A DNA stretch of 32,798 nt from Chloroflexaceae bacterium (GTDB lineage: Bacteria; Chloroflexota; Chloroflexia; Chloroflexales; Chloroflexaceae). The position numbers were made by a program, and so were the translations under genes. The DNA lies in contig JANQID010000015.1 in NCBI GenBank assembly GCA_028282325.1, positions 1 to 32,798 of the forward strand, in the 5' to 3' direction. Below are positions 9,617 to 29,694 of the stretch, in pieces; position 1 is the first letter of the stretch; every line of letters starts with the position of its first letter. Below the pieces are notes generated by a model, which saw nothing but the letters and a program-made list of their open reading frames with translations, had not been told where the DNA came from and made no database searches.

Positions 9617-9755
9617 TACCAAACAATATTGGAGACATCGCATGGGGTCATTCTGAGCGCAGCGAAGAATCTCCGATTCCCCCAACGCCGAGCCCCTGCA
9701 CGCTGCCTGCGGCGCCGTTCAGGGTGACATGCGGCATGGGTAGCATCGTTTGGTA
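9617..9755 (-). mobile_element. Dispersed 139-bp palindromic element, copy 1 (MITE-like)
   Basis: Begins TACCAAAC and ends GTTTGGTA. Inside are two inverted submotifs, TCATTCTGAGCGCAGCGAAG on one side and the complement of TGTCACCCTGAACG on the other. It lies just after the dehydrogenase-like gene. Flanking GA on both sides could be a short target duplication. Same length as copy 2 but opposite orientation. Confidence 0.85.
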
Positions 9756-17166: not shown

Positions 17167-17679
17167 TCATAGGTTGCCTGCATTCCGGCGCGATGCATAC
17201 ACCTTCACCACATCTGGCGAGGCGGCAAACGGTGCGGCAAGTTCAGTGATAGTGCGATTCAGCGTAGGATGGCGCAGATGCGGCGCAATTTCGGCCAGAG
17301 GCAGCAACACAAAGCCGCGCTCGGCGATGCGCGGATGCGGAATGCTCAGATCGGGCGTATCGATTGTCGCGTCACCGAACAACAGAATATCCAGATCGAT
17401 CAGGCGCGGACCGTAGCGCCGGGTCGGAACGCGCCCCATCGTTTGCTCAATATCCTTCAGGAAGCGCAAGAGCGCAACCGGCTCTAGCGCAGTTACACCT
17501 TCCAGCGCCATATTCAAAAATGACGGCTGGTTGGTGATGTACGCCGGCGCGGTTTCATAGACCGAGGAAAGGCGGACGACCCACACCTCCGTCGCAAGCC
17601 GCCGGATCGCCCGGTCGAGATTCGCCTGGCGTTCGCCCAGATTGGTTCCCAACGCCAGAAAGATTGTTGTTCCAGCCAT
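17167..17679 (-). CDS. folK: 2-amino-4-hydroxy-6-hydroxymethyldihydropteridine diphosphokinase
   Basis: HPPK of folate biosynthesis: transfers pyrophosphate from ATP to 6-hydroxymethyl-7,8-dihydropterin. Motifs present are FLALGTNLGERQANLDRA, the YET loop (SSVYETAPAY), FLNMALEGVT, and the signature RRYGPRLIDLDILLFG with its Mg-binding DxD (ATP and pterin site), followed by HPRIAERGFVLLPLAEIAP. An ATG 33 bases upstream would add eleven residues; the start given matches family proteins, although no clear ribosome binding site is seen for either. First gene of the minus-strand run 17679-13872 and divergent from the broken mobA. It would use the product proposed for the PTPS homologue at 5169-5666. 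Confidence 0.92.
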   Translation of the reverse strand: MAGTTIFLALGTNLGERQANLDRAIRRLATEVWVVRLSSVYETAPAYITNQPSFLNMALEGVTALEPVALLRFLKDIEQTMGRVPTRRYGPRLIDLDILLFGDATIDTPDLSIPHPRIAERGFVLLPLAEIAPHLRHPTLNRTITELAAPFAASPDVVKVYASRRNAGNL

Positions 17680-17767
17680 ATTGCTATCGCAAACAGTTGC
17701 CCATTGCTGCATACCGGCGCTATCATACCACCATTACGCGCGCACAGTTTCTACACGGGGGGCATCA

Positions 17768-18300
17768 ATGCAGCCAATCAGCGGAATCATCGTCGCCGGA
17801 GGTCGCAGCCGACGATTCGGCAGCGACAAGCGTGCTGCGTCTCTGGGGCGACCAAGGACTACCAAACGATGACACCCATGCCGCATGTCACCCTGAACGG
17901 AGCCGCAGGCAGCGTGAAGGGTCGCGGCGTTGGGGGAATCGGAGATTCTTCGCTGCGCTCAGAATGACATTATGCGGTGTCTCCCATATGGTTTGGTAGA
18001 CCGACGTTGCTGGAACATACGCTGGAGGTTATCGCGCCGCTCTGCACCGATGCGGATAACGCGCTGCGCATCGAGCCGCTGCATAGCATCTACGTGCGCA
18101 CGCTGCTGCCGTCGTTGCAGGCGGCGCTCGAACGCGGCGTGCGCCAGGCAACAGCGTTCCTCCGTTCGGCGAGAACGATCATCGTCGAACCGGCTAACAT
18201 TGCTCGCTATGATCCGCATGGTTATGCTTTCATCAACGTCAACACGCCGGACGATCTTGCGCTGGCGCGCCGCATTTTGGATGAGGAGGGGAAAAGGTAG
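17768..18300 (+). pseudogene. mobA: mobA remnant, split by a mobile repeat and internally deleted
   Basis: Molybdenum cofactor guanylyltransferase, which links GMP to molybdopterin. The N-terminal GTP-binding loop is intact (IIVAGGRSRRFGSDK, then AASLGRP, 17777-17856). The 139-bp element then interrupts the frame (17860-17998), and the gene resumes with GRPTLLEHTLEVIAPLC. It next jumps to RIEPLHSIYVRTLLPSLQAAL and finishes FINVNTPDDLALARRIL. Compared with MobA proteins, about 70 residues between VIAPLC and RIEPL are missing, including the acidic DMP motif. Thus at least two lesions exist, and the enzyme should be dead. The ATG is preceded by GGGG. Confidence 0.85.
17860..17998 (+). mobile_element. 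Dispersed 139-bp palindromic element, copy 2, inside mobA
   Basis: Begins TACCAAAC and ends GTTTGGTA, flanked by GAC on both sides (17857-17859 and 17999-18001), a possible 3-bp target duplication. Contains TGTCACCCTGAACGGAGC, and further on ATTCTTCGCTGCGCTCAGAA. Insertion within the coding sequence of mobA shows that this unit has moved. Confidence 0.88.
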
Positions 18301-18687: not shown

Positions 18688-18912
18688 TTATGCGAACTCA
18701 AACACCGGCGCTTGAACGTACCGAACCGGCTGGCGGTCTTCCCAGATAATGTGCTGCAACCGCTCAACTGTCTGCGGGGAGAAAAACTGCTCGCCTGTCT
18801 CCGAATTCACCCGCGCCGGCACGTGCTCAATGATGTAAAATTGGCCATCCTTCCACAAAGTATAGGTAACTTCCTGCTCCACAAGCTCTTCTTTTGGCAT
18901 CTTCATTGCCAT
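18688..18912 (-). CDS. YgiT-type antitoxin-like protein lacking the zinc-finger cysteines
   Basis: Short protein (about 74 residues) starting MAMKMPKEELVEQEVTYTLW. Its core, IEHVPARVNSETGEQFFSPQ followed by TVERLQHII, matches the YgiT/MqsA-like family, whose usual version has VPAxxCxxCGE. Here the two Cys positions are Asn and Thr. The start overlaps the end of the DUF4258 gene region: GGAGG within the last codons of that gene serves the ATG at 18912, three bases past its stop. Likely the antitoxin of a type II pair. A longer in-frame start at 18975 is less likely. Confidence 0.7.
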   Translation of the reverse strand: MAMKMPKEELVEQEVTYTLWKDGQFYIIEHVPARVNSETGEQFFSPQTVERLQHIIWEDRQPVRYVQAPVFEFA

Positions 18913-18913
18913 T

Positions 18914-19219
18914 TCATTTCCTCCGCATACGAAACTCTTTCCATGTATCGGGATCAGGCTCGTAGACCGTGACAATCTTGATTATCGGACGAGATGGATA
19001 ACTGCATTGAACGTGCAATGGCCTGCCATTTGGAGTGAAACCGAGTATCAGGCAACTTGACCCGTATTTGTCATGCGGATAATCTTCAATGACTTCTCCG
19101 ACATATATGGCTTGTCGGATCTCCCACACCCTGATTTTACGCAAAATGGATTGGTCGGCAGCATGTTTTGAGAACTCAAACTCATCTCGCACAAACTTTC
19201 GCCTGATTTCATCAATCAT
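18914..19219 (-). CDS. DUF4258 protein, probable toxin
   Basis: 101-residue protein with the DUF4258 pattern: FSKHAADQSILRKIRVWEIR near the start, then AIYVGEVIEDYP, LILGFTPNGRPLHVQCSY and the end IIKIVTVYEPDPDTWKEF. This family is usually the toxin partner next to a YgiT-like antitoxin, and resembles RelE/BrnT folds. The gene order here is toxin first, antitoxin second, with the two ORFs two bases apart. Preceded by an extended -10 box. Nuclease activity is inferred from family context only. Confidence 0.75.
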   Translation of the reverse strand: MIDEIRRKFVRDEFEFSKHAADQSILRKIRVWEIRQAIYVGEVIEDYPHDKYGSSCLILGFTPNGRPLHVQCSYPSRPIIKIVTVYEPDPDTWKEFRMRRK

Positions 19220-19476: not shown

Positions 19477-19684
19477 TACCAAACGATCAAAGTTATGCCG
19501 CATGTCACCCTGAGCACCGATGGCCCGGCGGCGGGCCAATGGCGCCGGGAGAAGCTTGAACGCTACACGATAGCGTTCACGTTTCTGAGGAGCAAAGCGA
19601 AGGGGAAGGGTCGCGACCTTGGAGCCAGGGATTCTTCGCTGCGCTCAGAATGACCGCATGCGGCACATCCAATATTGTTTGGTA
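19477..19684 (+). mobile_element. Dispersed palindromic element, copy 3, enlarged to 208 bp
   Basis: Same TACCAAAC and GTTTGGTA ends as the others, with flanking GC on both sides. The middle is enlarged with extra small hairpins (GGCCCGGCGGCGGGCC around 19523, and GAACGCTA with TAGCGTTC around 19565). Shared submotifs are TGTCACCCTGAGC and ATTCTTCGCTGCGCTCAGAA. Confidence 0.82.
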
Positions 19685-29560: not shown

Positions 29561-29694
29561 TACCAAACAATATTGGAGACACCGCATGCGGTCATTCTGA
29601 GCGCAGCGAAGAACCTCGGACTCCAATCGAGGCCCTTCCCTCCGCCTGCGGCTCCGTTCAGGGTGACATGCAGCATACGCATCATCGTTTGGCA
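29561..29694 (-). mobile_element. Dispersed palindromic element, copy 4
   Basis: Begins TACCAAAC and ends GTTTGGCA, 134 bp, just after the DUF1566 lipoprotein, with GG flanking both ends. It has TCATTCTGAGCGCAGCGAAG on this strand as in copy 1, so it is in the same orientation as copy 1. Confidence 0.82.

Follow-up and report, generated by a model that had tools for sequence, protein, structure and literature searches.

Three independent lesions have turned the mobA gene at positions 17768-18300 of the analysed stretch into a pseudogene: a frameshift, the insertion of a 139-bp MITE-like element and an in-frame deletion of about 81 codons. Very probably, the gene became dispensable after the loss of the bis-MGD enzymes, and the molybdenum cofactor pathway was kept for enzymes of the sulfite-oxidase family. 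The stretch (32,798 nucleotides, referred to as the window) is one complete contig (C110) of a draft genome of 4.6 Mb in 140 contigs. The stated completeness of the draft is 99.98%, many of its contigs end in the 139-bp element, and an intact mobA or bis-MGD gene is possibly hidden in an assembly gap.

The remains of mobA extend from the ATG at 17768 to the stop codon ending at 18300 and adjoin an intact divergent folK. The features of the window are listed below.

17167-17712, minus strand: folK (HPPK), intact divergent neighbour of mobA (PF01288, 131 bits)
17768-17833, plus strand: 5' part of mobA in the start frame, MQPISGIIVAGGRSRRFGSDKR, with the nucleotide-binding loop (LAGG-type motif) retained
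17834-17836, plus strand: frameshift site in mobA, placed by comparison with relatives, the LRLWGDQG codons being out of the start-codon frame
17835-17859, plus strand: LRLWGDQG codons of mobA after the frameshift, with 17857-17859 as the left GAC
17857-17859, plus strand: left GAC of the 3-bp target duplication, from flank comparison across copies
17860-17998, plus strand: MITE-like element of 139 bp with TIRs TACCAAACGAT/ATGGTTTGGTA, 6.5% off the family consensus
17999-18001, plus strand: right GAC of the 3-bp target duplication, from flank comparison across copies
18002-18051, plus strand: mobA codons PTLLEHTLEVIAPLCTD to the right of the element, from comparison with relatives
18046-18057, plus strand: in-frame junction of the internal mobA deletion, 78-85 aa missing, VVAADMP and LGGI motifs gone
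18052-18300, plus strand: 3' part of mobA, ADNALRIEPLHSIY...NVNTPDDL..., open up to the stop
9617-9755, minus strand: second 139-bp copy of the element with a 2-bp duplication
19477-19684, plus strand: 208-bp variant of the element with GC/GC flanks
29561-29694, minus strand: diverged 134-bp copy of the element, from end pairing

Two small overlapping genes are located on the minus strand at 18688-19219, one with a DUF4258 match (82 bits) and the other with no Pfam match; the pair is possibly toxin-antitoxin-like. The Rfam search of the window gave zero matches.

The best matches of the intact proteins of relatives were MobA models (TIGR02665 and the N-terminal part of PRK14489). Compared with these, the gene of the window has kept the loop at the N-terminus and the NVNTPDDL end at the C-terminus, whereas the catalytic middle is absent, the frame is shifted and the element is present. 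The frameshift, a further lesion overlooked in the first-pass annotation, lies between DKR (ending at 17833) and LRLWG (starting at 17835), upstream of the element. The element itself carries a TGA at 17870-17872, which is in frame with the mobA start codon. The deletion is seen as a jump from PTLLEHTLEVIAPLCTD straight to ADNALRIEPLHSIY. The earlier estimate of about 70 residues absent from the catalytic middle was right as to the deletion itself but somewhat too low: the size is 78-85 aa against 17 intact MobAs of relatives, 81 aa in the three closest of them. The deletion and the insertion are two separate events. A functional MobA is not encoded here, as there is no continuous frame and the catalytic middle with its DMP and LGGI motifs is missing.

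The coordinates first proposed for the element, 17860-17998, were found to be exact, giving 139 bp inside the mobA coding region. The element is an inverted repeat, TACCAAAC...GTTTGGTA, flanked by two GAC copies, and it folds end to end (z -2.34). It is short, has no spanning ORF and thus carries no transposase gene of its own. The 2-bp and 3-bp duplications across copies set its boundaries at TACC...GGTA. In a separate test, the mobA flanks were joined after removing 0 to 6 nt of the right flank. Only the removal of 3 nt (GAC) yielded LWGxxGPTLLEH in one frame, reading LRLWGDQGPTLLEHTLEV. The flanks joined with a single GAC give LRLWGDQGPTLLEH, the LWGxxGPTLLE core of which matches nearly all of the 17 aligned relatives; the MobAs of the relatives start with DKR-x-LRLWG-xx-GPTLLEHT, the spacing after LWG being constant. 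Since one frame is restored only at GAC removal, the boundaries are independently confirmed, and the position of LRLWG outside the start-codon frame places the frameshift upstream of the element, at about 17834. The GAC repeat, initially described as a possible duplication, is therefore a true 3-bp target duplication of the rarer 3-bp class, as follows from the flank join and from the 2- or 3-bp duplications in 64 of 82 flank-resolved matches. A reading in the start frame (AASLGRP...), which would imply either TA as the target or a GACC duplication of 4 bp, was dropped because the other frame gives the relatives-like product with GAC; it is also contradicted by the 2-3 bp duplications of the copy population.

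At least 44 matches of the element (43 besides the mobA copy) were detected in the genome at E<=0.001. Exact left ends numbered 73 versus 0 for a reversed-pattern control, and the TIR pattern was matched 307 times versus 28 for the control. The copy counts are lower bounds because the element breaks the assembly and many contigs start or end in it; contigs C6, C17, C28 and C34, for example, start inside the element (the end lying at bases 89-99), and others do likewise. The 82 flank-resolved matches were obtained from stretches around known and isolated ends by pairing facing ends, and a few of them (>350 bp, three mismatches) are probably chance pairs. Direct duplications of 2 bp were present in 56 of the 82 matches (shuffled mean 18.8, maximum 31) and those of 3 bp in 8 (shuffled mean 0.7, maximum 3). 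The former were mostly GC, GA or TC, and six of the eight latter were GAC/GTC. The suggestion that the element is mobile is thus backed by the copy number, by the duplicated targets at numerous unrelated positions and by the mobA flank join.

No matching duplication was present at the copies L063, L071, L075, L079 and L081, which often have TC as the left and GC as the right flank. The copies L075 and L077 (contigs C24 and C23) have a common 26-base left flank and different right flanks; recombination between copies, variation among strains or a misassembly could account for this. Longer forms with tandem internal modules between one pair of ends were observed at L127:1330-1855, L128:1801-2037, L129:1278-1512 and at 19477-19684 of the window. 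A second clear gene disruption was not found among the other copies, the intragenic cases being mostly apparent antisense or spurious ORFs.

The short length with no transposase, the TIRs, the duplication of characteristic length and the insertion at many unrelated sites are those of a MITE. The flanking duplications are GC, GA, TC, GT, AC and GAC/GTC, with TA in few cases, which is not the pattern of an IS630/mariner-type MITE. RUP, Correia and ERIC are small non-autonomous repeats of bacteria (reviewed in PMC2229807). Like these, the element is shorter than 200 bp and non-coding, has TIRs starting with TA and target duplications, and occurs in high copy number, mostly in intergenic and sometimes in intragenic positions; unlike in these, the TA is inside the element and the duplication is 2-3 bp, variable and G+C-rich instead of TA. 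No parent insertion sequence was found for it in the stretches inspected. These covered part of the genome, and no convincing autonomous partner with the same ends and a length of up to 3.5 kb was seen in them; a search for rve-type transposases gave two matches only, neither bounded by the element ends. The case amounts to the insertion of a MITE-type element into a gene in decay, an event of a known kind involving a high-copy element which has been unnamed so far. IS30 and the IS427 group of IS5 produce target duplications of 2-3 bp. The duplication length is alike, but no transposase with TACCAAAC ends was found in the rve-type search, and descent from an IS30-like or IS427-like element is no more than a lead. 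The well-supported ends (TACCAAACNAT) and the target duplications make the search for the transposase concrete.

Elements of relatives (L023, L025, L026, L027 and L029, near 1501-1603) have a nearly identical inner core and other TIRs. The same holds for L034-L036, L040 and L041, where the inner core is nearly kept and the TIRs are different. The core of these elements, compared by eye, is GTCAYYCTGAGCG.AGCGAAG..., and the TIRs are, for instance, CTMCAACGAG or GCAGAAGTAACGC. It is conceivable, though rather doubtful, that they belong with the element to one set spanning the family, whose conserved inner core (GTCACCCTGARCGGAG...GATTCTTCGCTGCGCTCAGAATGAC) lies between quite different TIRs in different genera. 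If true, the core would act as a REP-like module in its own right, selected or copied alone and recruiting different transposases via new ends. The literature searches for the core motif and for MITEs of Chloroflexi returned no relevant paper and no paper, respectively.

The presence of the broken gene had been taken to suggest either that guanylation of the cofactor is dispensable or that another mobA exists. Both proposed searches, for a second mobA and for bis-MGD enzymes, were run, and the results favour dispensability. A search with the MobA fragments gave no matches beyond the two pieces in the window, and no second MobA was found in the genome; the other NTP_transf_3 matches read as sugar-nucleotide or other nucleotidyltransferases. 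A search of the genome_contigs set gave distant MobAs only. No intact gene of a bis-MGD enzyme was present among the PF00384/PF01568 matches of the genome. These matches were NuoG (524 bits, above the cut-off), an ActB/Qrc-like protein of 1004 aa (C56) and a gutted relic; NuoG and the ActB/Qrc-like protein are taken here as not needing molybdenum. The relic (C131:13952-14482, corresponding to L125:7953-8483) derives from a molybdopterin oxidoreductase of ~710 aa and contains a frame change. It keeps residues about 10-142 and 626-702, and about 480 middle residues are gone. On the same stretch (L125:12226-13680), a 484-aa ORF resembles the RuBisCO large subunit. The reverse strand of L181 contains a 366-aa ORF from 1099 with RFTPTGVGTA/VHPHGRGDG at regular steps, a pattern typical of a CRISPR array translated as protein.

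The cofactor pathway as such is probably kept, since the genome has intact genes for MoeA and for a MoaD-MoaE fusion. Xanthine-oxidase type enzymes (PF02738) were absent in the search of the genome. An intact MsrP was found on C136 with 450 bits versus the cut-off of 207, adjoined by a protein that reads as an MsrQ-like membrane protein. A second sulfite-oxidase-family (PF00174) protein, single-domain and 230 aa long, is intact as well. YedY/MsrP contains MPT and not bis-MGD (PMC4228395), and MobA mutants lose the activities of the DMSO-reductase family (DMSOR; PMC7759655). Judged by their enzyme family, MsrP and the second PF00174 protein would both be expected to use the unguanylated cofactor. 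The C136 protein passes the MsrP model and may explain why the cofactor pathway was kept in the absence of MobA.

MobA and bis-MGD enzymes go together across the family: of 40 further genomes, 33 contain both and seven neither (33/0/0/7). MobA was called in each genome with the fragment query at E<=0.001, by which a very diverged MobA may be missed. All 33 MobA-positive genomes have a PF01568 match above 48 bits. The seven MobA-negative genomes have none above 46 bits, and their weak matches are NuoG-sized, the identity of NuoG in relatives being deduced from length and score. The Fisher p value of 5.4e-8 treats the genomes as independent, which genomes of one family are not. The seven negative genomes represent six genera, two of which also include MobA-positive species. 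An intact homologue of the C131 relic adjoins mobA in the relatives G014 and G049, and in G013 and G007 fdhE and fdhD are followed by mobA.

The insertion is one of three lesions in mobA. It is unlikely that it was the primary event which killed a working gene, with the other two lesions and the loss of the bis-MGD enzymes coming after. The copy is fairly young (6.5% from the consensus), and alone it would end translation at 17870-17872. However, either of the other lesions, the frameshift or the deletion, would by itself destroy or severely impair the gene, and none of the three is datable. Moreover, MobA and bis-MGD enzymes are jointly absent in relatives with no trace of a mobA insertion, and an earlier loss of MobA would have disabled bis-MGD enzymes still in use.

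That the element caused the adjoining deletion during its transposition is very improbable. No more than about 50 bp lies between the two, but the deletion junction is situated downstream of the element instead of at its edge: intact mobA sequence (18002-18051, ~50 bp) separates them, and the GAC copies are intact on both sides. These two observations make the deletion a separate event, and together with the additional frameshift they mean that the insertion cannot be named as the cause of the mobA loss. Misassembly at a repeat, which a fragmented draft with numerous contigs ending in the element might suggest, is an equally improbable source of the lesions, given that both flanks are mobA in the correct order and orientation, that the element between them is complete and has a matching duplication, and that the frameshift and the deletion are outside the repeat. 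An element tolerated in a working MobA, as in the protein-coding palindromic elements (RPE) of Rickettsia, or a split enzyme made of the two halves can practically be dismissed: the 3' part does have 107 open codons up to the natural stop, but there is a stop in the mobA frame at the start of the element and no open in-frame read-through (TGA 17870-17872), in contrast to RPE, besides the upstream frameshift and the loss of about 81 catalytic residues.

The preferred explanation is thus decay of a gene no longer needed. The lineage would have lost its bis-MGD (DMSO-reductase-family) enzymes, which would have made MobA dispensable, and relaxed selection may then have allowed mobA to decay. The non-autonomous element would have entered the gene by means of a transposase acting in trans, creating the GAC duplication. 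The molybdenum pathway would have been retained for sulfite-oxidase-family enzymes such as MsrP, with a cofactor lacking GMP. As mobA is found in the family only where bis-MGD enzymes occur, the pseudogene gains a metabolic reason: mobA and an enzyme whose homologues adjoin mobA in relatives are decaying together, while the MsrP-type enzyme stays.
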